A program made the translations under genes and the position numbers. From the NCBI RefSeq assembly GCF_022012395.1, contig NZ_JAKLTQ010000003.1:124001-188000 (forward strand): 64,000 nucleotides of DNA, read 5' to 3'. Below are positions 2,781 to 39,352 of the stretch, piece by piece. The DNA comes from Arthrobacter hankyongi (GTDB taxonomy: Bacteria; Actinomycetota; Actinomycetes; Actinomycetales; Micrococcaceae). Position 1 is the stretch's first letter; each line of letters starts with the position of its first letter. Below the pieces are notes generated by a model, which was given only the letters and a program-made list of their open reading frames with translations, had not been told where the DNA came from and ran no database searches.

Positions 2781-2808
2781 CTATCGGCATGGTTTTGCAT
2801 AGCGTTAG
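2781..2808 (-). promoter_or_regulatory. Sigma-28 type promoter for flgN-flgK-flgL
   Basis: On the minus strand CTAAC (2808-2804), a 15-base spacer and GCCGATAG (2788-2781) reproduce the flagellar sigma-28 layout (enteric consensus TAAA-N15-GCCGATAA). The same arrangement occurs at four other flagellar gene starts in this window, which makes chance unlikely. It faces flgN and leaves a leader of about 100 bases. Confidence 0.85.
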
Positions 2809-2847
2809 CACCCTCTGGTGATAGGTTTCATCCGTAGGTTTCTGTGA

Positions 2848-2869
2848 CTGCCGGGCAGCTGTCCGGCAG
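2848..2869. promoter_or_regulatory. Palindrome between flgN and fliA, possible operator
   Basis: CTGCCGG (2848-2854), an 8-base spacer GCAGCTGT and CCGGCAG (2863-2869) form a dyad in the divergent flgN/fliA spacer, about 60 bases before the fliA start. No sigma-28 motif faces fliA, so this site may bind an unidentified regulator of the sigma gene. That role is inference. Confidence 0.4.
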
Positions 2870-2928
2870 CCATATTTTTGCGGAAGAGCCATACGTTCCG
2901 TGCGCGATGCTCATAGGGGGGCAAGCAG

Positions 2929-3738
2929 TTGGACCGTGCTGTGCGTAATGACCTGGTGGTGGAAAATTTGCCGCTTGTCGGCTACCTGGTGGCGGAAGTG
3001 TGCGCGAAGGCCACACATCTGTCCCGGGACGACCTGGCTTCTGCCGGATCGGTGGCGCTGATCACCGCGGCGGACGCCTTTGATCCTTCGCTCGGGGTTC
3101 CGTTCGGTGCCTTCGCCCGCCGGCGCATCGTTGGGGCTTTCGCGGACGAGATGCGCGCCATCGACTGGGCTCCGCGTTCGGTGCGCAAGCGGATCAAGGA
3201 GACCTTGGCCGTGCGCGAAACCCTCACCGCCGCACTTGGCAGGTATCCGACCGTGGACGAGATCGCCTCGGCGCTCGGCGTGGACCGCGAGACGGCCGGG
3301 GCCGCGCTGGCGGATGCCTCGCGGACCGTCTCCGCGCTGGATGATATGACCGCCGATTTCCTGATGGACGAGACACCCTCCCCGGAAGGGTCACTGCTGG
3401 ACGAGGAGCGGCTGGTCTTCCTGCGCTCGGCGGTGGAGATCCTGCCGGAGAAGATGCGCTACATCATCGAGCAGATCTATTTCGAAGACCGTTCGGTCAA
3501 GGACCTGGCCGAAGAGCTCGGCGCCACGCACTCGGCCATCTCGCAGCAGCGCTCCGAGGCGATCCGGCTGCTGCGCGACGGCTTGGCCACGCACTACCAC
3601 GACGACGCCGAGGCGGAGCACGTGCCCGAATCCCGGATTTCCCCGGCGCGCCGGAACAGCTACCTGTCGACCCTGGGCCAGCGCACTGCCGGCGGCATCA
3701 CCCGCATCGGCCGCCAGTCCGAACCGATGGTGTCCTGA
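2929..3738 (+). CDS. fliA: RNA polymerase sigma factor FliA/WhiG type (sigma-28)
   Basis: A 269-residue group 3 sigma-70 factor expected to direct polymerase to late flagellar promoters. Region 2 is seen in VENLPLVGYLVAEV and LASAGSVALITAADAFDP...FGAFARRRIVGAFADEMR, region 3 in RSVRKRIKET through TVDEIASALGVDRETA, and region 4 as a helix-turn-helix (FEDRSVKDLAEELGATHSAISQQR). The proposed start is TTG at 2929 with a G-rich stretch about 9 bases upstream; a GTG at 2938 is the alternative. It is divergent from flgN and directly before fliC. The C-terminal tail after about residue 225 is unlike region 4 and looks species-specific. No anti-sigma factor FlgM was found nearby. Confidence 0.92.
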   Translation: MDRAVRNDLVVENLPLVGYLVAEVCAKATHLSRDDLASAGSVALITAADAFDPSLGVPFGAFARRRIVGAFADEMRAIDWAPRSVRKRIKETLAVRETLTAALGRYPTVDEIASALGVDRETAGAALADASRTVSALDDMTADFLMDETPSPEGSLLDEERLVFLRSAVEILPEKMRYIIEQIYFEDRSVKDLAEELGATHSAISQQRSEAIRLLRDGLATHYHDDAEAEHVPESRISPARRNSYLSTLGQRTAGGITRIGRQSEPMVS

Positions 3739-3776
3739 CCGCTCAGTTCGCCACCAAGAAATTTCCCGAATTCCTC

Positions 3777-3804
3777 CTAACGCCCCTGCGACCTGCGCCG
3801 ATAG
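3777..3804 (+). promoter_or_regulatory. Sigma-28 type promoter for fliC
   Basis: CTAAC (3777-3781), 15 bases, then GCCGATAG (3797-3804). It lies 60 bases before the flagellin start and its ribosome binding site. It is identical in both boxes and in spacing to the flgN, flgB and fliM promoters of this window. Confidence 0.88.
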
Positions 3805-3864
3805 CGCTAGGTGAAGGCCCACGGACGGGCCGGAAGCACCAACCCACTCACGGAGGAATACATC

Positions 3865-4737
3865 ATGGGTATGCAGATCAACACCAACATCTCGGCGAAC
3901 AACGCCTACCGCAGCCTGAGCAGCATCCAGAACAACCTGTCCAAGTCGATGGAGAAGCTCTCCAGCGGCCTGCGCATCAACCGTGCGGCCGACGACGCCG
4001 CCGGCCTGTCCATTGCCGAGGGTCTGCGTTCGCAGGTCAACGGCAACGGGGTTGCCGCCCGCAACGCCCAGGACGGCATCTCGGTTATCCAGACCGCGGA
4101 AGGCGCCCTGACCGAGGTCCACTCCATCCTGCAGCGCATGCGTGACCTGGCTGTTCAGGCAGCGAATGATGCGAACAACGCTGACTCCCGCACCGCAATC
4201 AAGAACGAAGGCGACCAGCTCGGCGCGGAGCTCTCCCGCATCATCGAGTCCACCAACTTCAACGGCATCAACCTGTTCCAGGGCGGTGCTACCGCCGGTC
4301 CTGCCACGCTGAACTTCCAGGTTGGTGCCGAGGGCGACGCCGCTTCCACCATTTCGGTGGGCATGGCGGATCTGGCCACCGACCTGACCGACGTCATCAC
4401 CCACACGGGCGGCACCGTCGGGACGGCCGCGGCCGGCTTCATCGTGACCGACAAGACCACCGCGCAGGCCACCATCGAGGATATCGATACTGCGATCAAG
4501 AACGTGTCCGTGTCCCGTTCGGAGCTGGGCGCGAACCAGAACCGTCTCGAGTCCACCATCAACTCGCTGAACATCGCCAAGGAAAACCTGACCGCCGCCG
4601 AGTCCCGCATCCGCGATACGGACATGGCTGCGGAGATGGTCAACTACACCCGCTCCAACATCCTGTCCCAGGCCGGCACCGCGATGCTGGCGCAGGCCAA
4701 CCAGTCCGGCCAGGGTGTGCTGCAGCTGCTGCGCTAA
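3865..4737 (+). CDS. fliC: Flagellin FliC
   Basis: Filament subunit of 290 residues. The N-terminal D0/D1 domain has MGMQINTNISANNAYRSL and GLRINRAADDAAGLSIAEGL; the C-terminal D0/D1 domain ends with ANQSGQGVLQLLR, the usual polymerisation end. The variable middle is short (about residues 145-200), so this is a small flagellin. CGGAGGA stands 7 bases before the ATG at 3865. The gene has its own sigma-28 promoter and is followed by a strong hairpin, so it is probably a single-gene transcript. Its likely chaperone gene fliS follows fliD downstream. Confidence 0.97.
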   Translation: MGMQINTNISANNAYRSLSSIQNNLSKSMEKLSSGLRINRAADDAAGLSIAEGLRSQVNGNGVAARNAQDGISVIQTAEGALTEVHSILQRMRDLAVQAANDANNADSRTAIKNEGDQLGAELSRIIESTNFNGINLFQGGATAGPATLNFQVGAEGDAASTISVGMADLATDLTDVITHTGGTVGTAAAGFIVTDKTTAQATIEDIDTAIKNVSVSRSELGANQNRLESTINSLNIAKENLTAAESRIRDTDMAAEMVNYTRSNILSQAGTAMLAQANQSGQGVLQLLR

Positions 4738-7060: not shown

Positions 7061-7088
7061 CTAACATGGCACCCCCGGCTGCCGATAG
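7061..7088 (+). promoter_or_regulatory. Sigma-28 type promoter for the flgB-flgE operon
   Basis: CTAAC (7061-7065), 15 bases, GCCGATAG (7081-7088). It controls the long flgB-flgC-fliE-...-flgE run. Transcription would begin near 7095, which helps to choose the flgB start. Confidence 0.88.
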
Positions 7089-7163
7089 GGCGGAGTGAGC
7101 ATGGATCGCTCACACCTCAGGCCACGGATCGGCCGCCGCACCGCGAGTGAAGTTGGTTTTGCC

Positions 7164-7505
7164 GTGTTCGATTCCGTGAGCTCCGTGGCGCTGGAAAGCG
7201 CCCTGGATGGCCTGGCCCTGCGCCAGCGTGCCATCGCGAACAACATCGCCAATGTGAACACCCCGGGCTACCATGCCAAGCGGGTGGCCTTCGAGGACGC
7301 GCTCTCCCGCTCCATCCAGCTGGGCGACGGACACGCCGACGCCACCACGGCCCGGTCCCTGGAGCCCACCCGGACCGACGGCAACAACGTGAACCTGGAC
7401 ACCGAAACCCTCTCCAACGTTGAAACAGTGCTGCGCTACCAGTTCGCGGCCCGGGCCGTGGAAGGCCAGTTCACCAGCGTCCGCACGGCGATGAGGACCA
7501 GCTGA
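7164..7505 (+). CDS. flgB: Flagellar proximal rod protein FlgB
   Basis: FlgB forms the proximal rod next to the MS ring. With GTG at 7164 the 113-residue product reads (V)FDSVSSVALESALDGLALR, then AIANNIANVNTPGYHAKRVA, the rod/hook protein signature. Upstream in-frame starts at 7095 (GTG) and 7101 (ATG, with GGAG 5 bases before it) would add 21-23 residues unlike FlgB, and those lie at or before the predicted transcription start. The stop overlaps the flgC start by one base (TGATG). First gene of the basal-body operon. The gene is certain; the exact start is not. Confidence 0.88.
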   Translation: MFDSVSSVALESALDGLALRQRAIANNIANVNTPGYHAKRVAFEDALSRSIQLGDGHADATTARSLEPTRTDGNNVNLDTETLSNVETVLRYQFAARAVEGQFTSVRTAMRTS

Positions 7506-17187: not shown

Positions 17188-17225
17188 TTTGGCGGAAAAC
17201 ATAGCTGTCTCTTAGCTGCTTCCAT

Positions 17226-17268: not shown

Positions 17269-17283
17269 CTCCCGGAGCGCGAC

Positions 17284-26030: not shown

Positions 26031-26136
26031 GGGTCGGGCGATGCCTAGGGCGCCAATTTCGTGACGGCCCGGCCGGGAGCCTTCCACGGCGGATATGCTC
26101 TGGGCGGGGCGTTTCCTCATTGGTAGGCTGGATGCG

Positions 26137-26640: not shown

Positions 26641-26912
26641 GCGCGGAATCGCAGCGGCGGGAGAACTCCGCCGTCATCCATCAGTCGTGCCGTGGTCGGC
26701 GGGCGACATAGCCCGCCCGATTACCTGGGCTTGCTGCCTGGTCTTGCTGCGGATCTGTGCATTCCGGCTCACCTTGTCCTGCAAGCCGAGTTTAAGTTGA
26801 CGGGTTCATTCCAGGCTGCTGGGCGCCACCCGTCGCATGGTCCCCGTCCTCGGCACTAATCCGCCGGACGAGGGACTGCCTGCACTAAAGGAACTGAGAG
26901 GAAAACCTGGTC

Positions 26913-27727: not shown

Positions 27728-28484
27728 CGTCATCTGGAGGGCGGTCGGAAGCTCAGTCGCAAGGGCGCGCCCGGCGGACCAAGAGCGGGGCCGAGTGGCA
27801 GACGTGGCATGTCTATCCGCAGACCCCGCGAAGCGTCACAACCCGCAGCGTAGTCCGGGCGGCACGGTGAAGGCCCTGCAAATCCGGCCCGCCGCCCGGA
27901 GTGGCTTGATGACGAGGAACTCGAGCTAGGTAACCTCGCGTCGGGCCCGCAGGCTTCTGAATGTAGTCTGACGCCGTCCCGGCTTTCGGATCGGGCACAA
28001 CGTTCCTGAAGCGGACGGCCAAAGGTCCCACCCTCTTGTCCACGGTGGGGCCTCTGGCCGTCCCCAAGGCCGGGTGCTGTTGTATGGTGCCGGCCCGCAA
28101 TACAAATCATATGGATGTGGCGTTATTGCCTGCGGCACCTTTGCGCCACCTGTGAAGACTCTCCCATATCCCTGAAAAGCCTTGCCGCCCGGCCGTCCGC
28201 CCGGGAACACTGGAGGCACCTGTTAGGGCCACGCCTTCCGGTGTCCGGCAGACGTCGGAGGGGTCCGGGCTGAACCTGACCCCTGGGCCGGCTTCCCTCC
28301 GCACCGTGGTGGCCGTTGCTTTGGTCGGATTCGGCGCCACGCTGAACACTTGTAACAAAGCCCCCAGTCCTGAAGTTCCCCAGCCAAAGCAAGGTCGGGG
28401 TCCCAACGAGCGATCCAGTGGACCAGACCCTTGTGCGTTTTGGGCCAGGCCTGCTAATCCGGGGTCGCATGAAAGAAGGTGCCG
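27728..28484. other. Long spacer without convincing gene
   Basis: About 750 bases with only short, unlikely frames on either strand. The main structure is the large hairpin at 28013-28063. GAAAGAAG at 28471-28478 is the ribosome binding site of the following lipoprotein gene. Confidence 0.5.
28013..28063. repeat. 20-bp stem inverted repeat in spacer
   Basis: GGACGGCCAAAGGTCCCACC (28013-28032) and GGTGGGGCCTCTGGCCGTCC (28044-28063) pair with three mismatched positions over an 11-base loop. It could be a bidirectional terminator for the cupredoxin unit or a remnant of a palindromic repeat element. Confidence 0.6.
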
Positions 28485-28865
28485 GTGCGTATCGTCTCCC
28501 TTTGCCTCGTCCTCCTGGCCGCACTAACCGGTTGCTCGAGTCCGGGAGGGGGCAACCCCGCCACCTCTCCGCCGGCATCTCCATCGGTCGTCCAGTCGGC
28601 CGACCCGCCGACCGCTCCGTCAGCCTCTGCGTCGGCGAACACCTCCGTGCAAACCGTCGATCCGAACACTGCGACGACCGAGGAGCTGACCGCAGCACTG
28701 CAGTCGGCCGGGGTGGATAACCCCGAGAAGTGGGCCGACGAGGTCCAGGAGTACGGCCCCTACACGGCCGAGAACCTCGAGCCCACGCTTACCCAGGAGC
28801 TCGGCAAGTATGGCATCTCCCAGGATCAGCTGAGCAGGGTGCTCAGTGCCCTCAAGGTGGAGTGA
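28485..28865 (+). CDS. Hypothetical lipoprotein
   Basis: A 126-residue lipoprotein. The signal peptide (VRIVSLCLVLLAALTGCSS) has the lipobox LTGC. A Ser/Pro/Ala-rich linker leads to a small C-terminal helical domain from about residue 60 (TTEELTAALQSAGVDNPEKW; EVQEYGPYTAENLEPTLTQE; ISQDQLSRVLSALKVE) that looks like a protein-binding helical bundle. GTG at 28485 is preferred since GAAAGAAG stands 6 bases upstream; GTG at 28479 is the alternative. The stop overlaps the next start (GTGA), so it works with the membrane protein below. Confidence 0.75.
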   Translation: MRIVSLCLVLLAALTGCSSPGGGNPATSPPASPSVVQSADPPTAPSASASANTSVQTVDPNTATTEELTAALQSAGVDNPEKWADEVQEYGPYTAENLEPTLTQELGKYGISQDQLSRVLSALKVE

Positions 28866-29359
28866 GCGTTGTGGTGAGCACCGTGGGAACCCGCTCCGAC
28901 GCGGTGAAGCTGGTCAACCTCTATCGCCGTCTCCTGACGTGGCTGGGCGTTAGCACCGCCCTCGGGGCCTGCGCCGAGCTAGCGATGCTGCGCCACTGGC
29001 AGGGCCCGGGCCAGCTCGTGCCGTGGGCGGTCCTGGCCGTGCTGCTTCTCGCCGCGGCGGCATGGCTGGTGCGGCGCTCCGCGGCAACCGCGCGGGTCCT
29101 GCAAGGGACCGCGGTGTTAGCCGCACTGGGCAGTGCGTTTGGTGTCTACGAACATGTCGGCGCGAACCTGGACGCCGGTCCGCTCAGCGGTCACTATGCC
29201 GGCAAGTGGGAGTCGATGTCGGCGGTGTCGCAGCTGTGGGCGGCCGCCACCGGGTCCGTTGGCGCCTCCCCGGTGCTCGCGCCGGGCATGGTCGGACTGG
29301 CGGGCGTGCTGCTATGGCTCGCCGCTTTCCGCTGGGTTCCCGGGAATCGACAGCCCTAG
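28862..29359 (+). CDS. Hypothetical four-helix membrane protein
   Basis: A 165-residue protein with four predicted membrane segments: LLTWLGVSTALGACAELAML, LVPWAVLAVLLLAAAAWLVR, LQGTAVLAALGSAFGVYEHV and VLAPGMVGLAGVLLWLAAFR. A loop before the last carries DAGPLSGHYAGKWESMSAVS. No family recognised. The GTG at 28862 overlaps the lipoprotein stop and has AAGGTGGA close upstream. The pair may form a small envelope complex; function unknown. Confidence 0.75.
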   Translation: MSVVVSTVGTRSDAVKLVNLYRRLLTWLGVSTALGACAELAMLRHWQGPGQLVPWAVLAVLLLAAAAWLVRRSAATARVLQGTAVLAALGSAFGVYEHVGANLDAGPLSGHYAGKWESMSAVSQLWAAATGSVGASPVLAPGMVGLAGVLLWLAAFRWVPGNRQP

Positions 29360-29985
29360 AGCTGGCAGTGTACTGACCATCGGGGCGAGTCCGCGGCCGC
29401 ATGGGCGGCATCCCGGACGGCCAGTGATGATCCAAAGACCGACGTGACAGTCTACCGTGCCCCTGCCGGGTGCGATGCCGACTGGAGCGAAGCTGTAGAA
29501 TCACCGGCAGGGCTGGCTCTGGCCATCCGCGCGGTGTACACCGCAGTCCAGCACGCCGAGAAGGAGCAGCTGGAGGCGCTGCTCATCAGTGAGGTAATGG
29601 TACTCATCGTACGCATGGTCGCAGCACGCAATATCGACATCGAAGGCGACCTTCTCCGTGCCGTCGGCCGCGGCTGGGGCTCAGGAAAGAGCTCCGAACC
29701 TACCAAGAATCGAACCTCAGCATTGATTCCAGCGGTCGGTTCATCCCGCGGCAGAAATCCCGAATCGCGGGCTTTGGGCTTGAGGCAAGCCGGGGCAAGG
29801 CTTGTCTGCACGCGGTCCGCCACCTCGTCAGATCCAACAATTACGAGCGGCTAGCCCCGATGCGACGCCGTAGGCAGCATCCCTGACAATGACCTAACAG
29901 AGCTGGTACCGGCGAGGCTCCCCGAGGGAACGAAGGACGGGAAGGCTGACAGGTCTAGGGCCGGGGACGCGCCGGAGCCACGGGC
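29360..29985. other. Gene-poor stretch with one doubtful frame
   Basis: A plus-strand frame at 29444-29854 could encode 136 residues; the middle (AIRAVYTAVQHAEKEQLEAL; VMVLIVRMVAARN) looks helical but the ends are low quality, and no ribosome binding site is evident. The rest shows no gene. I treat the region as remnant DNA beside the decayed recombinase. Confidence 0.35.
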
Positions 29986-30411
29986 CTAACGTGCGCTTGC
30001 GGGAACCCAGCTGTACAGGGTCGGGACGGACCCAGGTTGGCTGCGACCTCTTTCGCCGACATGCCCTGGGCCCAGGAGCTTTCTGGCGGCGGCCATCTTG
30101 CTGGCGGTCATCAGCCTCTTGCGGGCGCCTACACGCCCTTGTTCCCTGGCTGCCGCCAGCCCCGCCTGGGTACGTTCGATCATGAGTTCGCGTTCCAGTT
30201 GGGCCAGGGACGCCATGACGTGGAAGAAGAACCGCCCGGACGCAGCGGCGGTATCGATGGATTCGGTCAGGCTAACGAATCCGATGCCCCTGCGGCCGAG
30301 CTCGCACACGAAATGGATAAGATCTTTGACGTTGCGTCCGAGGCCGTCGAGTTTCCACACCACGAGAGTGTCACCCTCACGCAGACTGCTGCAGGCCCGG
30401 CCTTTGGTCAC
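29986..30411 (-). pseudogene. Serine recombinase (resolvase) remnant
   Basis: The frame matches a Tn3-type resolvase from the middle on: LREGDTLVVWKLDGLGRNVK, IGFVSLTESIDTAAASGRFF, LAQLERELMIERTQAGLAAA. The N-terminus with the YxRVS motif and the catalytic serine is absent. Near 30035-30080 the frame is shifted and then restored: the third frame reads AQGMSAKEVAANLG where a helix-turn-helix is expected, and the original frame resumes at PTLYSWVPASAR. So both catalytic and DNA-binding parts are broken. It marks past mobile-element activity. Confidence 0.85.
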
Positions 30412-30690
30412 GGCCTGAACTACAACCCATGCCTATCATCGGCAGCGGGATTGGGGCCTCATGCCACGTGCACGGATCGAATGCGGCGGCGGATGGGCCC
30501 CGGTTTGATCGCCCGTGCCCACCGTGGATGGCCAGGTTGAAGCGGACGAGACTGCTGGCTCGCTAAAGTCCTGGCGGGAATCGGTAGCACGACAGGGGCC
30601 AGGACCGCGGCATTCCGGCAGCCAGCGGGGTCGTGGAGGATACGCTCGGATTGAAGTATCGGAAGCTCCAGCCGTGAGCGGCGAACGGCC

Positions 30691-31455
30691 TCAGCTGATT
30701 CTGCGGCGGTAGATAGCGGTCGCGATCGCATAGGCGGCGACGAGGATGCCGACCAGCCAGGCGAGGGCGATCCAGATGTCATCGCCGACGGGTTGCCGGG
30801 TGAAGAGGGCACGGATGGCGTTCACGATGGAGGTCACGGGTTGGTTCTCGGCAAACCATGCGACTGGTGCGGGCATCGAACTGGTGGGCACGAACGCTGA
30901 GCTGATGAAGGGCAGGAAGATCAGCGGATAGCTGAACGCGCTTGCGCCGTCGACGGTCTTCGCCGAGAGCCCGGCGATCACGGCGATCCAAGTCAGTGCG
31001 AGGGTAAACAGGACCAGGATGCCGGCGACGGCGAGCCAGCCGGCCACGGATGCTCCGGTGCGGAACCCCATGATCAGGGCGACGCCGGTGACGATCGCGA
31101 CCGAAGCCAGGTTTGCGGCCAGGGAGGTGAGCACGTGCGCCCAGAGCACGCTCGACCTTGCGATCGGCATGGACTGGAAGCGTTCGAAGATACCGCCCTG
31201 CAGGTCGAGGAACAGCCGGTACGCCGTGTAAGCGATGCCGGATGCGATCGTGATGAGCAGGATGCCGGGCAGTAGGTAGTTGACGTACGACTGGTTGGAT
31301 CCGGTGTTGATCGCGCCGCCGAGCACATACACGAACAACAGCATCAGCGCGACCGGGGTGACCGCAGTGGTGATGATCGTGTCGGGGCTGCGGAGGATGT
31401 GGCGCAGCGAGCGGCTAGTGAGGACGCCGGTGTCGCCGAGCAGGAGGGAAGTCAT
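30691..31455 (-). CDS. ABC-2 type exporter permease (DrrB-like)
   Basis: A 254-residue integral membrane protein with six helices in ABC-2 permease layout: TIITTAVTPVALMLLFVYVL, YVNYLLPGILLITIASGIAY, LTSLAANLASVAIVTGVALI, then LALTWIAVIAGL, PLIFLPFISSAFVPTSSMPA and WIALAWLVGILVAAYAIATA. The conserved FERFQSMPIARS loop contacts the ATPase. It resembles daunorubicin-type DrrB permeases, so a drug or lipid may be exported. The start overlaps the ATPase gene by ATGA. Last gene of a PadR-DUF1048-ATPase-permease unit. Confidence 0.92.
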   Translation of the reverse strand: MTSLLLGDTGVLTSRSLRHILRSPDTIITTAVTPVALMLLFVYVLGGAINTGSNQSYVNYLLPGILLITIASGIAYTAYRLFLDLQGGIFERFQSMPIARSSVLWAHVLTSLAANLASVAIVTGVALIMGFRTGASVAGWLAVAGILVLFTLALTWIAVIAGLSAKTVDGASAFSYPLIFLPFISSAFVPTSSMPAPVAWFAENQPVTSIVNAIRALFTRQPVGDDIWIALAWLVGILVAAYAIATAIYRRRIS

Positions 31456-32285
31456 CGGAGTTCCTTTCGTGCCGCGACCTTGTCGTCGACGCGGTCAGCG
31501 TCGGCGGTGCCGGCCTCACCGGCTTCAGAGACGAGGGCGATGAAGACCTCCTCCAGGGAGGGCTGCTTCTCGACGTAGTCGACCTTGGCGGGCGGAAGGA
31601 GTTGCTTGAGTTCGGCAAGGGTGCCGTCCTGGATGATCTTGCCCCGGTGCAGGATCGCGATCCTGTCGGCGAGCTGCTCGGCCTCGTCAAGGTACTGCGT
31701 CGTGAGCAGCACGGTCGTGCCGCCATCGGCGAGTTGCTTGATGGTCTGCCACACCTCGACCCGTGCCTGGGGGTCGAGCCCCGTTGTCGGTTCGTCAAGG
31801 AAGACGACCGGTGGGTTCCCGATCAGGCTCATCGCGATGTCGAGCCGGCGTCGCATGCCACCCGAGTACGTCGATGCCTTGCGGTTGCCAGCTTCAGTGA
31901 GCGAGAAGCGGATGAGGAGGTCATCGGCGATCGCAGCCGGGCTCTTCAGGTGACGAAGCCTGGCGACCAACATCAGGTTCTCTCGACCCGTGAGCACTTC
32001 ATCGACCGCGGCGAACTGGCCGGTGAGGCTGATCGACTCGCGCACCTTGCCGGGCTCGGTTCCGACGTCGAAGCCGCGCACTGTGGCGGTGCCCGAATCG
32101 GCCTTCAGCAGCGTCGACAAGATCCGCACCAACGTCGTCTTGCCCGCACCATTCGAGCCAAGCAGCGCAAAGATACTTCCCGCTTCCACCTCAAGGTCAA
32201 CGCCCCGCAGCACGTGCAGGTCCTTGAAGGACTTCCCGATGCCCTGCACTCGGATGGCGGGTTCGAGGGCCTGGCCGGTGGTCAT
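31452..32285 (-). CDS. ABC exporter ATP-binding protein (DrrA-like)
   Basis: A 277-residue ATPase. Walker A is GSNGAGKT, the Q-loop LTGQFAAVDE, signature YSGGMRRRLD, Walker B VVFLDEPTTGLDP and switch His is replaced by the TTQYLDEAE pattern typical of the DrrA subgroup. The C-terminal extension (VDYVEKQPSLEEVFIALV) is also DrrA-like. ATG at 32285 (MTTGQALEPAIRV) is chosen over an upstream extension because it overlaps the preceding DUF1048 stop. It energises the adjacent permease. Confidence 0.94.
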   Translation of the reverse strand: MTTGQALEPAIRVQGIGKSFKDLHVLRGVDLEVEAGSIFALLGSNGAGKTTLVRILSTLLKADSGTATVRGFDVGTEPGKVRESISLTGQFAAVDEVLTGRENLMLVARLRHLKSPAAIADDLLIRFSLTEAGNRKASTYSGGMRRRLDIAMSLIGNPPVVFLDEPTTGLDPQARVEVWQTIKQLADGGTTVLLTTQYLDEAEQLADRIAILHRGKIIQDGTLAELKQLLPPAKVDYVEKQPSLEEVFIALVSEAGEAGTADADRVDDKVAARKELR

Positions 32286-32650
32286 TTCTGCTCCTTCCGC
32301 TCCGCATCCTCGATCGCTTTGGTCAGGCGGGCACGCTCCTTGTCGATCCACTGCTTGCCGGTGTAGGCCTGCGCAAACGTCTCGGCGAACTCGACCGGAT
32401 CATCGCCCACGATCTCGCGCACCGGCGTGCCGTCGGCGGCGGCGCGCTCCCACAGGTCGGCCAAGTCGCCGAACATTGTGATGAGGGTCTCTCCGTCGGT
32501 GATGCCTCCGTAGTACATGAAGTACCGGTGCAGCGCTTTCGCAGCACTTCCGTACGGCTCCGGGAGGGAATCGATGCGGGTCTTGTCCTGCTTGTATTGC
32601 TTCTTCTGCTCGAGCGATCCGGTGAGGGTCTCGATCCACTTTGCTGCCAT
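32282..32650 (-). CDS. DUF1048 protein
   Basis: A 122-residue soluble helical protein of the DUF1048 type (MAAKWIETLTGSLEQKKQYK; LPEPYGSAAKALHRYFMYYG; DPVEFAETFAQAYTGKQWID). These proteins are found next to PadR regulators and ABC-2 exporters, and structures show a helical bundle of unknown role. It overlaps the ATPase start by 4 bases and follows padR by 2 bases, so the four genes are one unit. Confidence 0.88.
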   Translation of the reverse strand: MAAKWIETLTGSLEQKKQYKQDKTRIDSLPEPYGSAAKALHRYFMYYGGITDGETLITMFGDLADLWERAAADGTPVREIVGDDPVEFAETFAQAYTGKQWIDKERARLTKAIEDAERKEQK

Positions 32651-32652
32651 GA

Positions 32653-33003
32653 TTACTCTCTTTCATCATGCGGGTGTTCGACATGGTGGTGGAGCTGTTC
32701 GATCCGTTCCGCGAGGAAGTTCCAGGCCCTCCAGAACTCTTCGAGGTACTCGTGGCCCAGCGCGTTGATCGAGTAGACCTTGCGCGGGGGCCCTTTCTCG
32801 GAGGGGACCTTCGCCACGTCCACAAATCCGCGCTGCTCGATCCTGATCAGCAGCGCATAGACGGTGCCTTCGACGATGTCGGAGAAGCCCTGCTCCCGCA
32901 GCCGCGCCGTGATCTCGTACCCGTATGCCGGCTGCACGGCCAGGATCGCGAGAACGATGCCCTCGAGCGTGCCCTTGAGCATCTCGGTCATCTGCTTAGC
33001 CAT
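32653..33003 (-). CDS. PadR-family transcriptional repressor
   Basis: A 116-residue winged-helix regulator: MAKQMTEMLKGTLEGIVLAI, then PAYGYEITARLREQGFSDIV, EGTVYALLIRIEQRGFVDV and the wing GPPRKVYSINALGHEYLEEF. A short C-terminal helix dimerises it. PadR proteins such as LmrR bind planar drugs and release exporter promoters. First gene of the exporter unit and probably autorepressive through the palindrome upstream. Confidence 0.93.
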   Translation of the reverse strand: MAKQMTEMLKGTLEGIVLAILAVQPAYGYEITARLREQGFSDIVEGTVYALLIRIEQRGFVDVAKVPSEKGPPRKVYSINALGHEYLEEFWRAWNFLAERIEQLHHHVEHPHDERE

Positions 33004-33030
33004 GGAACCCTTCCCGAACCTACCTAGCCT

Positions 33031-33052
33031 TACTAAGTACCACTAGATAGTA
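33031..33052 (-). promoter_or_regulatory. Probable PadR operator
   Basis: TACTA (33031-33035) and TAGTA (33048-33052) form the outer arms of a 22-base imperfect dyad 28 bases upstream of padR. AT-rich dyads of this size are usual PadR binding sites. It likely overlaps the promoter of the exporter unit. Confidence 0.5.
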
Positions 33053-33477
33053 GCACTGAATAGCTGTGGGACAAGGGGTCAATCGGGTTCGGTCTGGATT
33101 CAGTCGCGCCGGCTCACACCCCACGTCAATTGGTTTCCATAAGACCGGGCCCGCGAACGAGCACGGCGCGAGTGACGGCTCGGCCGGAGGAAAGTGGCTC
33201 ACCTATGTGGTGATGAGCGGATTCGTTAGGAATGCATTTCGGTCCTGCTCGATCACAACACCAGTCTGCGCGTCGTTCAGAGGTAACACACTGCGTCGCG
33301 GGCAAGGACAGTGCCTGCTGCAACGTCCTGGCTATGACGGGTCAGAGGAAGTATTTCATCCAGTCCAATTTCCAGGTCCTGAGGGACGCGGCGGGCGGAC
33401 CGGTTGGCGACTCGATGAGCCCCGGGTCATCCGGTTTGGGTGAAGCACCGGCCGGCGACGCGGCCTAGGGTCGGGGC
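33053..33477. other. Spacer without recognisable gene
   Basis: About 425 bases between the divergent padR and LURP-one-like genes. Short frames exist on both strands but none looks like a protein. No repeat or RNA gene recognised. Confidence 0.45.
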
Positions 33478-33984
33478 ATGGGACTATTACGGCACAGGCA
33501 TGACGAACCCACCGGCGCGCGGTTTCAGATGCGCGAGAAACTGCTGTCGATCGGGGATGACTTCTGGATTGAGGACGACCAGGGCCAACGCGCCTTCAAG
33601 GTCAATGGCAAGGCGGTTCGGGTCCGGGACACATTCGTTCTGGAAGACGCCTCGGGAAACGAGGTGGCGAGCATCCAGGAGCGCAAGTTCTCGGTCCGGG
33701 ACAAGTTTGCCATCGAGCGCGGGGGTGACACCGCAGCGACTGTCCACAAGGCGCTGATCGGGCTCCGGGATCGCTTCTCCATCGATGTGAAGGACGGCGA
33801 TGATATGAAGGCGCACGGGAACATCGTCGACCACGAGTACGAGATCGAGCGCAATGGCCACACCGTCGCCACGATCTCCAAGAAATGGTTCCGCGTGCGT
33901 GAATCCTACGGCGTCGAAGTCGTGCAAGGCGAGGACGTCCCGCTCATCCTTGCGATCACCGTCGCCATCGACTCGTTGGCCTAG
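33478..33984 (+). CDS. LURP-one-related (YxjI-like) protein
   Basis: A 168-residue protein of the LURP-one/YxjI beta-barrel family, related in fold to tubby and scramblase domains. The repeating strand pairs are clear: RFQMREKLLSIGDDFWIEDD, AFKVNGKAVRVRDTFVLEDA, VASIQERKFSVRDKFAIERG, IGLRDRFSIDV, TISKKWFRVRESYGVEVVQG. It ends VPLILAITVAIDSLA. The molecular role in bacteria is not established; membrane or lipid association has been proposed for relatives. Single gene, followed by a small hairpin at 34070-34089. Confidence 0.88.
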   Translation: MGLLRHRHDEPTGARFQMREKLLSIGDDFWIEDDQGQRAFKVNGKAVRVRDTFVLEDASGNEVASIQERKFSVRDKFAIERGGDTAATVHKALIGLRDRFSIDVKDGDDMKAHGNIVDHEYEIERNGHTVATISKKWFRVRESYGVEVVQGEDVPLILAITVAIDSLA

Positions 33985-34349
33985 CCTGTTCAGGCAACCC
34001 CACCCAGGAACCGACCCCGATTCCGGCTGGCCGCGACCTGCGATCCTCGATTCGATCCCTCCTCGGAATCCCTTCGATTTCGCGAAGGGGCAGCAGAGTC
34101 CGGCAGGATCGTTAAGTCTGCGGGAAGCTGCGCCTGTCGCCCAGACACCCGCCCGCACCCGGATCCCGGCATCATGTTGGGTCCGGGGTATCGCTTTCCC
34201 TTGGTGCCTGGCCCGTCACTCAGGTACCGGTGCCCACGGCTGTCTGGAGTCCGGTCGGGCGCGGCAGGCGCCGCCGCCCTTAAATGTCGGAGGCCGCCGC
34301 TACACTCACGCCCAACAGGTTCCGTAGCGCAACCGGGGCGGAGGGACGG
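33985..34349. other. Spacer with hairpin and recombinase promoter region
   Basis: CCCTTCG (34070-34076) and CGAAGGG (34083-34089) form a small hairpin that may end the upstream gene. TACACT at 34300-34305 is a plausible -10 box for the tyrosine recombinase. No other feature recognised. Confidence 0.4.
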
Positions 34350-35732
34350 ATGCCAAGGGTTCGGATCGAGTACGGCGGCAGTTGGGACGCCGCCGCCGTC
34401 GAGCAGGTGCTCGGCGTGCCGCCGCTGGCGGTCCCGGTGGTCCGTTCGCCGGTGCTCAGCGTGGACGGGTTGGTCGAACCGGATGCGACGGCGTGGCTGG
34501 CCGAGGTTTATGCCCGCACCGACGGCACCAAGACGGCCAAGTCCCACGCCGAAAGCCTGCAGCGCTTCGCCTCGTTCCTGCTCGAACACGGCACCACCCT
34601 GCGCGGGGCACGCCACGGCCACATCGTGGAGTACGTGCGGCACCGCACCGAGGACGCCGCCACCCGGGTCGCGGGCGCGACCTGGCAGCGGGACCGGACC
34701 GCGATCAAGCAGTTCTACGAATGGCTTCGTGACGCGCACGGCACGGCCCTGCCGTTCACCCTCGATCTGGTGCCCACGCCGGGCGGTCCGGTGGAGTCGA
34801 TGCGCGAGGGCCGCGGCATTCCGGCCGCCGGCGCGCCCGGCACCCCGCTGGAACCACCGCAGATCCCTCAGCTGCTGGCCGCGGCGCAGCGCGCCACTGC
34901 CTCCTGGGCGCCTGGCGTACCCAGTCCAGCCGGTGCCCGGGACGCCGCGTTCATCGCGCTCGGCCTGGCCTGCGGTGCCCGGGCGGACACCCTGGCGCAC
35001 CTGACCATCTACGAGCTGCCGGACCCGTCCTTGCCAGGGGAGTTGGTCGAGATGTACCTGCCCGGAGCCGTCAGCAAGGGCCGCCGCGAGGTCCGGCTCC
35101 GGGCCTTCCGGCGACATCTGGACCTGGTCTACGATTACCTGCACCCGGAGCGCGGAGCCCGCCGGCTGCTGCTGAAGGACTGGCTGCCGCCGGACCCGAT
35201 CCAAGCGGCGAAACCGCCTGTGCCCGGCTCCCGGGAAATCTTCGACACGGCCGGCACCAGGTACCGGTTCAACAGCATGACCGCCGCAGAGCGCCGGCGC
35301 CTGCTCACCCCCGACGGCGAGCCGGCCATGCTGTTCCTGTCCGCGCGCGACGGCGCGCCGCTGTCCTACAGTGCCGCCGAAGAGCTGACCGCCGACGTGT
35401 CCCGGGCGGCCGAAGCCGCCGCCCGGGCCCGCGGCGCCTACTTCCCCCACGTCCATACGCACGACCTGCGGCACACCTACGCCACCCACCTGGCCGCGCT
35501 CTACCTGATCGGCGCGGCGGACCAGGACATGCCCGGCGGGCATCCGGTGGACGCGCGCGGCGCCGTCGGTCTGGCCGCCACCGGGCTGGGCCACCTGGAC
35601 GCCCAGACCACGGCGGTCTACATCCGGCAGGTTGGCAGCATGGCCCGCCGGTACGGCGCCGCCGACTTCCTCGGACGGACCAGAACCGACCCGGCCCCGG
35701 AGAGCCGGGCTGCACAGCAGGAGGACCCTTGA
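34350..35732 (+). CDS. Tyrosine site-specific recombinase
   Basis: A 460-residue phage-integrase-family enzyme. The N-terminal SAM-like core-binding domain spans about residues 50-135 (TKTAKSHAESLQRFASFLLE; WQRDRTAIKQFYEWL). The catalytic domain has Arg211 (LACGARADTLAHL), the HxxR box (HTHDLRHTYATH, His371 and Arg374), GLGHLDAQTTAVYIRQ with a His and the nucleophile Tyr424. It is longer than XerC/D because of an insert near residues 275-340. ATG at 34350 is chosen for its GGAGGGA site; an ATG at 34284 lacks one. It is translationally coupled to the next gene (TTGA), suggesting a two-protein recombination module. Confidence 0.9.
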   Translation: MPRVRIEYGGSWDAAAVEQVLGVPPLAVPVVRSPVLSVDGLVEPDATAWLAEVYARTDGTKTAKSHAESLQRFASFLLEHGTTLRGARHGHIVEYVRHRTEDAATRVAGATWQRDRTAIKQFYEWLRDAHGTALPFTLDLVPTPGGPVESMREGRGIPAAGAPGTPLEPPQIPQLLAAAQRATASWAPGVPSPAGARDAAFIALGLACGARADTLAHLTIYELPDPSLPGELVEMYLPGAVSKGRREVRLRAFRRHLDLVYDYLHPERGARRLLLKDWLPPDPIQAAKPPVPGSREIFDTAGTRYRFNSMTAAERRRLLTPDGEPAMLFLSARDGAPLSYSAAEELTADVSRAAEAAARARGAYFPHVHTHDLRHTYATHLAALYLIGAADQDMPGGHPVDARGAVGLAATGLGHLDAQTTAVYIRQVGSMARRYGAADFLGRTRTDPAPESRAAQQEDP

Positions 35733-36157
35733 ACAGCAACCGGGAACTTGCCGAAGCCATCACGGACGCCCTGGCCGGCGGTGCGCTGCCGGTGCCGCTC
35801 CAAGCGCTGGTCGCCGGCACACTGATGTGCGCCCGCGGCGGTGCCCCGACCCGGCTGGGCATGGCCAAGGTGGGCGGCTACTCCAACGGCAGTTCTCAGA
35901 CGCACTATGCGGACCTGCTCGCGGCCATCATCGACCGGCTGCCCGCCGCGGTGGCAGCCATGGCCGATGACGTCGACCCGGTCCCGGCCGCACGGCTCGC
36001 CGCGGAAGTCCGACGGCGCGACGAGACCATCGCGGCGCTGCGCCGCCAAGTGAGGGCGCTCGCCAGGAGCCGGGAACAGGTACGGCGGTATGCCCTGGCA
36101 CTGCATGAACGCCTCCGTGCCGTGGAGGCTCAGGCGGGGGAGGAAGCCATCGGTTAG
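35729..36157 (+). CDS. Coiled-coil partner of the tyrosine recombinase
   Basis: A 142-residue protein of unknown family. Residues 1-65 may form a small DNA-binding helical fold (TRLGMAKVGGYSNGSSQTHY); residues 85-138 form an Arg/Ala/Glu coiled coil (LAAEVRRRDETIAALRRQVR). It starts at TTG 35729, overlapping the recombinase stop, with GGAGG just upstream. The layout recalls the small accessory protein (TnpC) that follows tyrosine recombinases in Tn554-type elements; that is an analogy, not a sequence match I can show. Confidence 0.75.
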   Translation: MNSNRELAEAITDALAGGALPVPLQALVAGTLMCARGGAPTRLGMAKVGGYSNGSSQTHYADLLAAIIDRLPAAVAAMADDVDPVPAARLAAEVRRRDETIAALRRQVRALARSREQVRRYALALHERLRAVEAQAGEEAIG

Positions 36158-36243
36158 GGGGATCCGCTGCGGGTCGCGTCGTCCCGGAGCGGTGGGACAG
36201 GGATGCTTTCCGACAGATGGGTGATGGGGTGGGGGAGGTAGCG

Positions 36244-36912
36244 CTAGGCGACTTGGTGGCGAGGGCCTTGGGATCGGTTGCTGGTCATGGCGGCCAGGGC
36301 GGCCCCGGCGGCCAGGACCCCGTCGACCACGGGAAGGCCGAGCCGGCGGCTCAGTTCGCCGGCCACACCCATGCTGCTCAGGCCGGTACAGGCCAGCAGG
36401 ATGACATCGGCAGCTGCCGCTGCCAGCCGCTCGCCCGCGGCCAGTGTTTCGAATACGCCGGTGGGCGTGAGCAGCTCCGGCGAGACGCTGACACTTGGCG
36501 GTGATTCGACGGCAGCAAGGTGGTCCCCGAGAACTGCCGCCACCGCGGCCGGAGCATCGTGCCTGATGCCCAGAACCCCAACCCTTGAGCCGATGGCCAG
36601 CGCGGCGGCCGCGCCGGCACTGCCGGCTCCCGCCACCGGAATGCTGGCGGCTTCCCGGGCCTCGGCAAGTCCGGGATCTTCGGCGCAGCTGATGATGATG
36701 CCGTCGACGTGCGGTGCCAGTTGGCTGGCAGCGGTGCGGACCCGGGGGACCGCACGGGACAAAGATTCGACGTCGTGGACCCCGTCAGGCTGGCCTGGAA
36801 TCGGGACCGACTGGACGCTGAACCCATAGGCAGCCTGCAGCGCATGCCCGTGGGTATGGAGCAGGGAACGGTTGGAAGTGGTCAAGGTGCGGATCAGCCC
36901 AATGCGTTTCAT
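36244..36912 (-). CDS. Asp/Glu/hydantoin racemase family protein
   Basis: A 222-residue protein of the two-cysteine racemase superfamily. The catalytic pair is Cys76 (GIIISCAEDPGLAEAR) and Cys175 (VILLACTGLSSMG). The start MKRIGLIRTLTTSNRSLLHT and middle RVGVLGIRHDAPAAVAAVLG fit hydantoin or Asp/Glu-type racemases, which invert an alpha carbon by a two-base mechanism without cofactor. AAGGA lies 7 bases before the ATG at 36912. Single gene, divergent from flbD, at the right end of the accessory region; the substrate is unknown. Confidence 0.85.
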   Translation of the reverse strand: MKRIGLIRTLTTSNRSLLHTHGHALQAAYGFSVQSVPIPGQPDGVHDVESLSRAVPRVRTAASQLAPHVDGIIISCAEDPGLAEAREAASIPVAGAGSAGAAAALAIGSRVGVLGIRHDAPAAVAAVLGDHLAAVESPPSVSVSPELLTPTGVFETLAAGERLAAAAADVILLACTGLSSMGVAGELSRRLGLPVVDGVLAAGAALAAMTSNRSQGPRHQVA

Positions 36913-37092
36913 CTGGAAATCCTTAGCGGTGCAGGAGTCGGGGCAGATTCGTTGGGTTTGGCTGGTGGGGAACATCCCTACCGCGATCCATCCTGCCCGG
37001 TGGTCGTTGCAGGCAGGTTTCCCCGAGGTTATTTCCCCGCGGCCGGCCCGGACCCGCACCGCTATGCCCGGCAGCAGGTGCTACGTGCATGC

Positions 37093-37120
37093 CTTACTTA
37101 TCCGGCGCGGCAGCCGACAG
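37093..37120 (+). promoter_or_regulatory. Sigma-28 type promoter for flbD-motA-motB
   Basis: CTTAC (37093-37097), 15 bases, GCCGACAG (37113-37120). It differs from the other four sites by one base in each box but keeps the exact spacing. It allows the right flagellar part to be expressed independently of the left operon. Confidence 0.72.
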
Positions 37121-37172: not shown

Positions 37173-37481
37173 ATGATCGTTGTCACACGGCTGAACGAGA
37201 GCCGGTTTGCGGTCAACCCTGACCTGATCGAACGCATCCACGCCAGCCCTGACACCACTTTGGTCATGGTGGACGGCGCCAAGTACATCGTCACCGAGAC
37301 GATGGAAGAGGTCATCGAGATGATCGCCGGCTACCGCGCCTATGTGCTGAACCTCGCCCGCGAGATGCCCGCCTATCAGCACGGCCATCCGCAGCTCGGC
37401 CTCGTGCCGCCGGCCGACGGGCAGGCAGGCGAGCCCGGAACCGCCGGCAATACCGTGCCCCTGCGCCCAAGGAACAAGTAA
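37173..37481 (+). CDS. flbD: Flagellar protein FlbD
   Basis: A 102-residue FlbD/SwrD-type protein: MIVVTRLNESRFAVNPDLIE, RIHASPDTTLVMVDGAKYIV, TETMEEVIEMIAGYR. In Bacillus the homologue SwrD raises stator output. The first 65 residues match the family; the remaining Pro/Gly-rich tail is extra. ATG at 37173 follows AGGACGGG. The stop overlaps the motA start (TAATG), fitting a link to the stator. Confidence 0.92.
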   Translation: MIVVTRLNESRFAVNPDLIERIHASPDTTLVMVDGAKYIVTETMEEVIEMIAGYRAYVLNLAREMPAYQHGHPQLGLVPPADGQAGEPGTAGNTVPLRPRNK

Positions 37482-38266
37482 TGGATTTAGCCATCATCGT
37501 CGGAGTGGTCCTGGCATTCGGGGCCCTGTTCGCCATGCTCACCCTCGAAGGTTCCCACCTGACGGCCATCCTGCTGCCGGCGCCGATGATCCTGGTCTTT
37601 GGCGCCACCATCGCCGTCGGTCTGGCCGGTGGCACGATGAAGGACTTCATCCAGGCCTTCAAAGCCGTCCCGAAGGCGATCAAGGGCAAGGTAGTCCCGC
37701 CGCAGGAAGTGATCGACAAGGTCGTGTCAATGGCTGAAAAGGCCCGCAGCGAAGGCCTGCTGGCCCTTGACCAGGAGGCCACCGAGACAGAAGACCCGTT
37801 CCTGCGCCGTGCCCTGCAGAACATTGCCGACGGTACGGACGGGGACGAGCTGCGGATGATGCTGGAGGATGAAATCGCCACCAAGTCGCAGGAGGACCGC
37901 ATCGCCTCCAAGTTCTTCCAGAGTCTGGGCGGCTACGCACCGACCGTGGGCATTATCGGCACCGTGGTGTCGCTGACCCACGTGCTGGAAAACCTTTCGA
38001 CGCCCGAGCATCTGGGGCCGATGATCGCCGCAGCGTTTGTGGCCACCTTGTGGGGCCTGCTTAGTGCGAACTTCCTCTGGCTGCCGCTGGCCGCCCGGTT
38101 GCGCCGGATCTCGGAACTCGAAGTGGACCGGATGACGCTGCTGATGGAGGGCATGCTGGCGGTCCAGGCCGGCAGCCAGCCTCGCCTGCTGGGCGAGCGC
38201 CTGCGTGCCATGGTGCCGGCACGGGACCTGCCGCCGGTTGATTCCGCCCCCGCTGCCGCGGCATGA
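37481..38266 (+). CDS. motA: Flagellar stator protein MotA
   Basis: A 261-residue membrane protein with four helices, the A subunit of the proton-driven stator. Helix 1 is LAIIVGVVLAFGALFAMLTL; helices 3 and 4 include GGYAPTVGIIGTVVSLTHVL, with the conserved Pro, and MIAAAFVATLWGLLSANFLW. The cytoplasmic loop has charged residues (AEKARSEGLLALDQEA) that face FliG. It overlaps flbD by one base and motB by four. Confidence 0.95.
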   Translation: MDLAIIVGVVLAFGALFAMLTLEGSHLTAILLPAPMILVFGATIAVGLAGGTMKDFIQAFKAVPKAIKGKVVPPQEVIDKVVSMAEKARSEGLLALDQEATETEDPFLRRALQNIADGTDGDELRMMLEDEIATKSQEDRIASKFFQSLGGYAPTVGIIGTVVSLTHVLENLSTPEHLGPMIAAAFVATLWGLLSANFLWLPLAARLRRISELEVDRMTLLMEGMLAVQAGSQPRLLGERLRAMVPARDLPPVDSAPAAAA

Positions 38267-39168
38267 GCAGGAGTCGCCGCCGTCGTTCCGGGTATGAGGA
38301 GGAGGAACACCCGGACGAACGCTGGATGGCCTCCTACATGGACATGGTCACGGTGCTGATGTGCATGTTCATTGTGCTCTTCGCCATGTCCACGGTGGAC
38401 GCGAACAAGTTCGCGAAGCTGGCCAACTCCCTGGCCACCGGGTTCGGCTCGGTTCAGAGCCAGAAAGTGGATACCGCCGAAGGTGTGGTGGTGCCGCCGG
38501 AGCTGGCCAACGCCCAGGGTGAGGGTTTTGCCGACATGGAGGTCGCCCTGTGGGAGGTGGAGGACCTGACCGCACTGCAGGACAAGATCGCCACCGGGCT
38601 GCACGCGCAGGGGCTGGAGGATGCGGCCCGCTTCGAGCTGGACGAGCGCGGTCTGACCATCAGGCTGGTCGGCAGCGAGTCCTTTTTCCGGCCCGACGAC
38701 GCGGCCCTGACCGCCCGGACCACCCGGGTGCTCAACGTGGTGGGGCCGGTCCTGAAGCCGGTGCATTATGAGCTGAAGGTCGAGGGGCATACCGCCCAGG
38801 TGCGGGACTTCGATCCGCGTGCCACGGACTGGGAGCTGTCCTCGGACCGGGCCGTCAACGTGCTGCGCCATCTCGTGGAAAACTCCGGGGTCGCCATGTC
38901 GCACATTTCCGCGGTGGGCTTCGGCGAGTCCCGGCCGTTGAAGACCTCCGGCTCGAAGGCGGACCTGGCGGCGAACCGGCGGGTGGACATCGTGGTGCTC
39001 TCCGGGCAGCCGGAGACGGTGCGTGCCCTGATCCCCGAAGTGGCGAAGGACCCGGCGGCCGCGCTGCGCAAGATCCAGCAGACCCGGGCCAAGCAGGCCG
39101 CTTCGGCGGAAACCGGCAGCGCCCAACCTGCCGGGGAGGGCAGTCAAGAGGAGTCCGCCGGCCACTGA
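38263..39168 (+). CDS. motB: Flagellar stator protein MotB
   Basis: A 301-residue stator B subunit. After a basic/acidic N-terminus, the single membrane helix WMASYMDMVTVLMCMFIVLF carries the ion-binding Asp27. The C-terminal OmpA-like peptidoglycan-binding domain includes LKVEGHTAQVRDFD, WELSSDRAVNVLRHLV, ISAVGFGESRPL and NRRVDIVVL. A Ala/Gln-rich tail follows. Last gene of the flbD-motA-motB unit. Confidence 0.95.
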   Translation: MSRSRRRRSGYEEEEHPDERWMASYMDMVTVLMCMFIVLFAMSTVDANKFAKLANSLATGFGSVQSQKVDTAEGVVVPPELANAQGEGFADMEVALWEVEDLTALQDKIATGLHAQGLEDAARFELDERGLTIRLVGSESFFRPDDAALTARTTRVLNVVGPVLKPVHYELKVEGHTAQVRDFDPRATDWELSSDRAVNVLRHLVENSGVAMSHISAVGFGESRPLKTSGSKADLAANRRVDIVVLSGQPETVRALIPEVAKDPAAALRKIQQTRAKQAASAETGSAQPAGEGSQEESAGH

Positions 39169-39222
39169 GCTCCGCTGGGACAGGGCATTGACTCTGCAGC
39201 AGCCGAGGTGTCGGGGGATTGA

Positions 39223-39272
39223 GTGTGCGCCACAGCCATGTTTGGCGGCCCATACATGGCTGTGGCGCACAC
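39223..39272. repeat. Perfect 18-bp inverted repeat after motB
   Basis: GTGTGCGCCACAGCCATG (39223-39240) and its exact complement CATGGCTGTGGCGCACAC (39255-39272) flank a 14-base loop. It may terminate the motB transcript or be a member of an extragenic palindrome family. Confidence 0.8.
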
Positions 39273-39324
39273 TGGGTGGAGGGCCGGGTCCGGTGCGCCC
39301 TGAATGAAGTTTGGCCGGAAGGTC

Positions 39325-39352
39325 CTAACATCGCCGAACCGGCTGCCGATAG
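39325..39352 (+). promoter_or_regulatory. Sigma-28 type promoter for the fliM-flhA operon
   Basis: CTAAC (39325-39329), 15 bases, GCCGATAG (39345-39352). It shares CCGGCT just before the -10 box with the flgB promoter. Transcription would start at about 39360, so an ATG at 39304 cannot be the fliM start on this transcript. Confidence 0.88.

Follow-up and report, generated by a model that had tools for sequence, protein, structure and literature searches.

A probable single sigma-28 promoter class and candidate CsrA-type leader hairpins in the flagellar gene cluster of Arthrobacter hankyongi

The flagellar gene cluster of Arthrobacter hankyongi described here lies in a stretch of 64,000 nucleotides (hereafter the window; C23:124001-188000 in a genome of 5,186,447 bases, 5.19 Mb, in 67 contigs), and the present report deals with five predicted promoters of the flagellar sigma factor, sigma-28 or FliA, and with the hairpins found in the mRNA leaders that follow two of them, those of fliC and of the flgB operon (Table 1). 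The host is closely related to Arthrobacter mobilis; the window FliA is 87% identical to that of A. mobilis E918 (L056, NZ_JAAZSQ010000002.1). Gene names were checked with Pfam and, for some genes, additionally with NCBIfam: Pfam names or fits flgK, flgN, fliA, fliC, fliD, fliS, flgB, flgC, fliE, fliF, fliG, fliH, fliI, fliK, flgD, flgE, flbD, fliM, motA, motB, fliN, fliO, fliP, fliR, flhB, flhA and csrA; fliQ was placed between fliP and fliR by eye only. The operon led by flgB continues with flgC, fliE, fliF, fliG, fliH, fliI and onward. The start codons adopted are 2673 on the minus strand for flgN, 3865 for fliC, 7164 for flgB, 37173 for flbD and 39361 for fliM, and all five promoters stand upstream of them.

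Table 1. Promoters, leader elements and genes of the window (positions in the window; hairpin loops in square brackets; N15, spacer of 15 nucleotides).
Feature	Position	Strand	Remarks
flgN operon sigma-28 boxes	2781..2808	-	exact CTAAC-N15-GCCGATAG; operon runs leftward
fliC sigma-28 boxes	3777..3804	+	exact CTAAC-N15-GCCGATAG
flgB operon sigma-28 boxes	7061..7088	+	exact CTAAC-N15-GCCGATAG
flbD-motA-motB sigma-28 boxes	37093..37120	+	CTTAC-N15-GCCGACAG; two mismatches to CTAAC-N15-GCCGATAG
fliM operon sigma-28 boxes	39325..39352	+	exact CTAAC-N15-GCCGATAG
fliC leader CsrA-type hairpin	3816..3831	+	GGCCC[ACGGAC]GGGCC
fliC Shine-Dalgarno	3849..3857	+	CACGGAGGA, itself an ANGGA site
flgB leader hairpin 1	7095..7113	+	GTGAGC[ATGGATC]GCTCAC; at predicted mRNA 5' end
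flgB leader hairpin 2	7120..7134	+	GGCC[ACGGATC]GGCC
FliA, flagellar-clade sigma factor	2929..3738	+	presumed reader of the boxes; Pfam sigma70 r2/r4
Candidate housekeeping-type extended -10 of fliA	2819..2827	+	TGATAGGTT; putative; back to back with flgN promoter
csrA	47603..47845	+	Pfam CsrA 7.9e-24; sole match in genome
flgN	2188..2673	-	leads leftward operon
fliC, flagellin	3865..4737	+	
flgB	7164..7505	+	TIGR01396 FlgB above cut-off

A first-pass annotation of this DNA had described boxes of identical sequence and spacing before flgN, fliC, flgB and fliM and a CTTAC variant before flbD, and both descriptions hold, the spacer being N15 at all five sites. The sites fit the sigma-28 layout of a -35 TAA(A) and a -10 GCCGATA(A), about 15 nucleotides apart and placed before flagellar genes; PMC8325347 gives the sigma-28 consensus as TAAA for the -35 and GCCGATAA for the -10, from which TAAC and GCCGATAG each differ by one base. 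When up to three mismatches are allowed, the window contains 12 matches against 9.3 expected, and 12 are reached by 23 of 100 shuffles; since this number is near the shuffle level, the looser matches are taken as background, the five sites being set apart by their exactness and their place. The genome scan that the annotation had suggested returns, for CTWAC-N15-GCCGAYAG, five matches, exactly the five flagellar sites (reversed-pattern control, two). With spacers of 14 to 17 nucleotides and the last G dropped, the matches become eight (control, six), namely the five and three with an N16 spacer on other contigs; the latter were rejected as further members of the flagellar regulon, their count being at control level and their neighbours not being motility genes by Pfam (CAP/FG-GAP, TM2 and DUF2510, the DUF2510 gene overlapping its match). 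An exact TAAC-N15-GCCGATA core at C56:2115 was likewise not accepted, as it overlaps the 3' end of an open reading frame and precedes the gene of a GH25/FG-GAP protein, and a scan of the genome for the core with two mismatches was without power (1631 matches, 1680 in the reversed control). Two stray sigma-28-like sites, L183:2056-2083 and L053:2115-2140 (one with N16, one without the leading C), both precede genes whose products have FG-GAP repeats, combined with a CAP domain in one case and with a GH25 muramidase domain in the other, which may be chance.

Conservation of the boxes was followed in 98 sequences (the window, 17 further stretches and 80 named loci), in which fliC could be placed 67 times, flgB 57 and flgN 85; a box was counted at a score of at least 10 of 13, and one fliC row (L075, whose alignment starts at residue 237) was left out of the count. 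Boxes are found before fliC in 65 of 66 rows, before flgB in all 57 and before flgN in 68 of 85, the same sequences reversed giving 1, 3 and 1, and the gap from the end of the box to the start codon is nearly constant (57-64 nucleotides for fliC, 70-92 for flgB). In some relatives the spacer before flgB or fliC is N16, and the -35 of other families frequently reads CTCA(A/G). A strict scan recovers all five boxes in A. mobilis (G001), four each in G036 and G033, and three in G007, those missed in the last three genomes being present with altered bases; with a loose pattern the flbD box is present in all 10 rows, window included. The GTG start of fliM lies 8 nucleotides past the -10. Of 20 loci examined, 18 keep the box with the start codon at this distance (15 of 15 unique), and in the other two fliM is truncated at its 5' end; because of this distance the fliM mRNA is predicted to be leaderless. 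As the first-pass annotation had noted, the class includes early basal-body genes, the flgB and fliM operons carrying the same promoter as flagellin. The boxless flgN rows (L077, L079-L081, L084, L086, L087, L092, L096, L101-L103, L107, L108, L114, L117 and L119) are mostly from Arthrobacter; no fliC was found within these 17 loci, the gene order in most is fliM..flhA-csrA-fliA, and the weak flgN match is divergent to fliA.

The annotation had further linked the consensus to FliA, a link to which sequence comparison lends support, the boxes fitting the consensus and being conserved in relatives and a single flagellar-clade sigma factor being found. The best NCBIfam model of the protein is TIGR02479 FliA_WhiG (E 1e-38, with a score under the curated cut-off), its best PDB sequence matches include the FliA structures 6pmi, 9wsm and 1rp3, and a protein search of the genome (E up to 0.001) yields only one other match, a weak one (E 3.4e-5). 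Because the boxes are conserved before fliC and flgB in relatives, it is very likely that FliA reads them. In another genome of the genus, G006, two FliA genes are present (on C226 and C180), each 60% identical to that of the window. On the strand of fliA itself, the motif scan of the window finds no sigma-28 box. As a possible housekeeping -10, GATAGGTTTCA was seen by eye upstream of fliA in 5 of 24 rows, and about 5 others show a variant of it, all of these rows being from Arthrobacter; the candidate at 2819..2827 is not among the matches of a simple sigma-70 scan. The likely circuit is one in which fliA is started from a housekeeping promoter and a single sigma-28 class follows. The fliA leader contains, at 2848-2878, a GC-rich inverted repeat followed by a T run, scored terminator-like and a possible attenuator of fliA; a similar hairpin is seen by eye in A. 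mobilis, not clearly in others. FlgM, the anti-sigma factor of FliA, is over cut-off in none of 59 genomes, this one included, and over cut-off in three control genomes; weak sub-threshold matches occur in five of the 59, none of them in this genome.

The genes of a CsrA-FliW module are present together with flagellin. Directly before the GTG start of csrA stands a -10-like ATAGAGTG (TAGAGT; 47580-47605), a TANNNT being seen by eye at this position in 24 of 27 rows (L050, L144 and L145 differ) and relatives having TAGATTGAGAG-ATG and similar; csrA thus seems to have its own -10 and to be leaderless. The single fliW gene, C23:123515-123862 on the minus strand, lies just to the left of the window, farther along the flgN operon and past the gene of a flagellin-N protein taken as flgL. 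Strong FliA matches (E below 1e-40) come from 20 of the 59 genomes, this one included, and the flagellin and FliW matches that exceed their cut-offs come from the same 20; CsrA exceeds its cut-off in those 20 and in G047 (89% complete). The top PDB sequence match of the window CsrA is 5dmb, which we take to be a CsrA-FliW complex.

An ANGGA in the loop of a hairpin is the layout of a CsrA site (PMC4894983), and the fliC leader has such a hairpin upstream and a further ANGGA at the Shine-Dalgarno, as in known CsrA-FliW modules. For the hairpin counts of the close set, leaders with a box score below 10 and identical leaders were removed, and dinucleotide shuffles served as controls; only identical leaders having been removed in the hairpin and ANGGA counts, some species are represented twice in the conservation sets (e.g., L036 and L056). 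In 44 of 56 unique fliC leaders of the close set there is an ANGGA hairpin whose stem is fully paired over four or more base pairs (shuffles, 9%); with no condition on the stem, ANGGA is present at the hairpin position in 56 of 56, and 55 of 56 have CANGGAGGA as their Shine-Dalgarno. The two arms of the stem covary, the pairing being 0.90 against 0.81 when arms are re-dealt (maximum 0.84 of 500). In further loci, from flagellated relatives of the order and collected before hairpins were scored in them, the fliC hairpin occurs in 13 of 15 rows, a row that is probably not fliC (L140, 30% identity) being counted as a miss; the pairing is 0.893 against a shuffle mean of 0.664, a value reached by 0 of 2000 re-dealt 3' arms (n=14).

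The flgB leader carries two such hairpins in tandem, their sites 23 nucleotides apart. By the same definition, a hairpin is present in 54 of 54 unique close flgB leaders and two hairpins in 53 of 54, the corresponding shuffle rates being 9% and 0.3-0.4%; flgN leaders, taken as contrast, have a hairpin in 5 of 65 (shuffles, 11%). The ANGGA is in place in 53 of 54 leaders for hairpin 1 and in 54 of 54 for hairpin 2, and is preceded by C in 52 of 53 and 54 of 54, respectively; the stems vary between families. The sites lie mainly 12-15 and 33-38 nucleotides past the -10, the start codon 70-92 nucleotides past it, and neither conserved site overlaps the ribosome site. Among the further loci, 10 of 11 have a flgB hairpin and 7 of 11 have two; the pairing is 0.900 against 0.780 for hairpin 1 (reached by 25 of 2000 shuffles, n=10) and 0.875 against 0.791 for hairpin 2 (21 of 2000). 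These loci replace an earlier covariation test, set aside as its loci had been picked after the hairpins were seen, which gave 0 of 2000 for fliC, 7 for flgB hairpin 1 and 0 for hairpin 2, with at least two ANGGA sites in 15 of 16 flgB loci. The tandem pair is unique in 104 kb of this contig, both strands, and absent from 10 random copies; the fold of the single leader shows both hairpins. Covariation of flgB in the close set and leader folding energies were rejected as evidence. At the gathering threshold, Rfam has 0 matches in the window, the leaders thus matching no curated RNA family, and among the open-access papers listed by literature searches on CsrA and flgB no title or abstract opening reports CsrA sites on an actinobacterial flgB leader. 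The window flbD leader was rejected as a clear CsrA target, its hairpin loop, ATTGGAA, having no ANGGA; in other families (L139, L141, L142 and L147) an apparent ANGGA hairpin and an ANGGA near the Shine-Dalgarno were seen by eye in the flbD leader, and CsrA may have a third flagellar target there.

The model that we consider likely is a single sigma-28 tier, timed afterwards by CsrA-FliW. From the sequence comparisons we infer that FliA reads the boxes and that CsrA binds the leaders. FliA would transcribe the flagellar structural operons as one class from the five promoters, so that the parts would be made at once, with fliA and csrA started from separate, probably housekeeping, promoters; should the operons indeed have one sigma-28 promoter in common, something else has to supply the timing, and order would be imposed after transcription, without a recognisable FlgM anti-sigma factor. 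CsrA would bind the fliC leader at the hairpin and at the Shine-Dalgarno and repress translation of flagellin as in Bacillus hag, and would bind the tandem hairpin pair at the predicted start of the flgB operon mRNA, a dimer probably bridging both; FliW, produced from the flgN operon, would relieve CsrA, and unexported flagellin would titrate FliW. Repression of flagellin by CsrA, its relief by FliW and the holding of FliW by flagellin are described in PMC7652899. The flat hierarchy that the first-pass annotation had considered possible finds support for transcription, which looks flat, and probably not at the level of protein, the fliC and flgB leaders carrying conserved CsrA-type hairpins; these, together with the missing box of fliA, the apparent -10 of csrA and the predicted leaderless fliM, were not part of that interpretation, which is partly supported.

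Several observations weigh against this model. The FliA score, 133 bits, is under the curated NCBIfam cut-off of 189.6, and 17 of 85 flgN rows have no box, although the identification of flgN in those rows is doubtful, the match being a weak one of 39-50% identity. The folding energies of both leaders are ordinary (z -0.64 for fliC, z -0.48 for flgB), the latter being no more stable than its shuffles. The flgB covariation in the further loci is modest and hangs on the loop register of the close set, 7, register 6 giving none, and L138 has no flgB hairpin; in the close set the flgB stems are nearly invariant, and re-dealt 3' arms pair equally well (hairpin 2, 0.830 real against 0.849; hairpin 1, 0.940 against 0.920, maximum 0.940). 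In the 104 kb, single ANGGA hairpins (6 on one strand, 3 on the other) are about as frequent as in random copies (2-11), which leaves the tandem arrangement and its conservation as the informative part. Across the phylum, 12 of 30 flgB loci have a hairpin and 6 of 30 have two, the six including this window and a repeat of L145; the tandem layout is not universal. Finally, FlgM is small and poorly conserved, and an unrelated anti-sigma factor could exist.

Such an anti-sigma factor would replace FlgM and hold FliA until completion of the hook, the late genes being delayed at the level of transcription. WhiG has an anti-sigma factor, RsiG, that is not FlgM (PMC8325347), and FlgM is hard to detect; since early and late operons share the promoter, however, holding FliA would hold the basal body too, and we regard this explanation as the least probable. 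Nearly as little is to be expected of a plain sigma-28 class in which the hairpins are generic stabilisers of the mRNA 5' end, or leftovers, and CsrA has no role at flgB: the promoters are conserved independently of hairpins (flgN has its boxes, with hairpins at or below shuffle level) and the flgB folding energy is ordinary, but ANGGA and its preceding C keep their place in nearly every unique flgB leader of the close set, while stems differ between families, and csrA tracks flagellin among relatives, which makes this account improbable.

The direction in which CsrA would act on flgB is a question within the sigma-28 and CsrA-FliW model. It may be that CsrA represses the flgB operon, basal-body synthesis stopping together with that of flagellin when flagellin backs up; the arrangement at fliC, elsewhere in this cluster, is that of repression through a blocked ribosome site, and in Campylobacter FlgI levels drop on deletion of fliW (PMC4894983). 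The conserved flgB sites, however, stay well short of the start codon and off the ribosome site, and we give repression somewhat less than an even chance. Because both sites are at the predicted 5' end and neither is on the flgB ribosome site, protection or activation, by analogy with E. coli flhDC, would be our first guess and repression the second.

In Actinoplanes missouriensis, work by Jang et al. in 2016 reportedly found one FliA-type promoter class, CTCA(N15-17)GCCGAA, before all flagellar operons, and simultaneous flagellar assembly is said to have been inferred from it; that work is not known to describe a CsrA layer. The single class described here resembles it, so a one-class regulon is not new: the promoters are a correct find, already known in kind. 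The -35 differs, being CTAAC or CTTAC here, whereas the CTCA(A/G) of other families agrees with the Actinoplanes motif. The three-tier hierarchy of enterics does not fit the sequence, the flgB and fliM operons carrying the box and FlgM being over cut-off in none of the 59 genomes. In the CsrA-FliW-Hag system of Bacillus subtilis, too, csrA and fliW go together with a flagellin leader that has two CsrA sites, one of them located on the Shine-Dalgarno (PMC7652899); the difference is the second candidate target here, a flgB operon leader with two tandem 5' hairpins off the ribosome site. Compared with protection of flhDC by CsrA in E. coli (PMC7652899), the target here is a rod and MS-ring operon, not a master regulator, and protection from RNase is putative. 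In Campylobacter jejuni CsrA also binds basal-body mRNAs, flgI and flgH being enriched, but flgB mRNA is not (1.6x), and the flgI site is near the Shine-Dalgarno (PMC4894983). In Kineococcus radiotolerans (PMC2587704, 2008) csrA lies among the flagellar genes and fliC has a hag-like CsrA site; flgM was found absent from the flagellated Actinobacteria sequenced by then. The available text of that paper makes no mention of flgB leader sites or promoter motifs, and FliW does not occur in it.

As regards the layout of the cluster, the region between flgE and flbD (17188-37092, about 20 kb) is mostly non-flagellar and contains a tyrosine integrase (34284-35732), an ABC transporter, a cupredoxin-like protein and an AAA+ ATPase; the flgB and flbD boxes are 30.0 kb apart in the window, compared with 18.9 kb in A. 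mobilis and roughly 10 kb in both G033 and G036.

The conserved hairpins after two of the promoters point to an RNA-binding protein that would act later and determine in which order the flagellum is assembled. How flagellar assembly is ordered in bacteria without FlgM was a question raised for Actinobacteria in PMC2587704 in 2008, and the conserved CsrA-type hairpins of the flgB operon, found where csrA and fliW accompany flagellin in the genome, offer a concrete answer that is easy to test, the soil bacteria concerned being harmless; the conserved tandem leader is the part that specialists would not expect. More tentatively, and on balance doubtfully, it may be proposed that flagellated Actinomycetales have exchanged the FlgM-sigma-28 checkpoint for one made of CsrA and FliW, which would act with opposite signs on the fliC and flgB leaders of the one sigma-28 class, so that in a flagellin backlog free CsrA would stop the translation of fliC and stabilise the flgB operon mRNA; if this were true, the cell would respond to a backlog of flagellin by making more export machines and less cargo.

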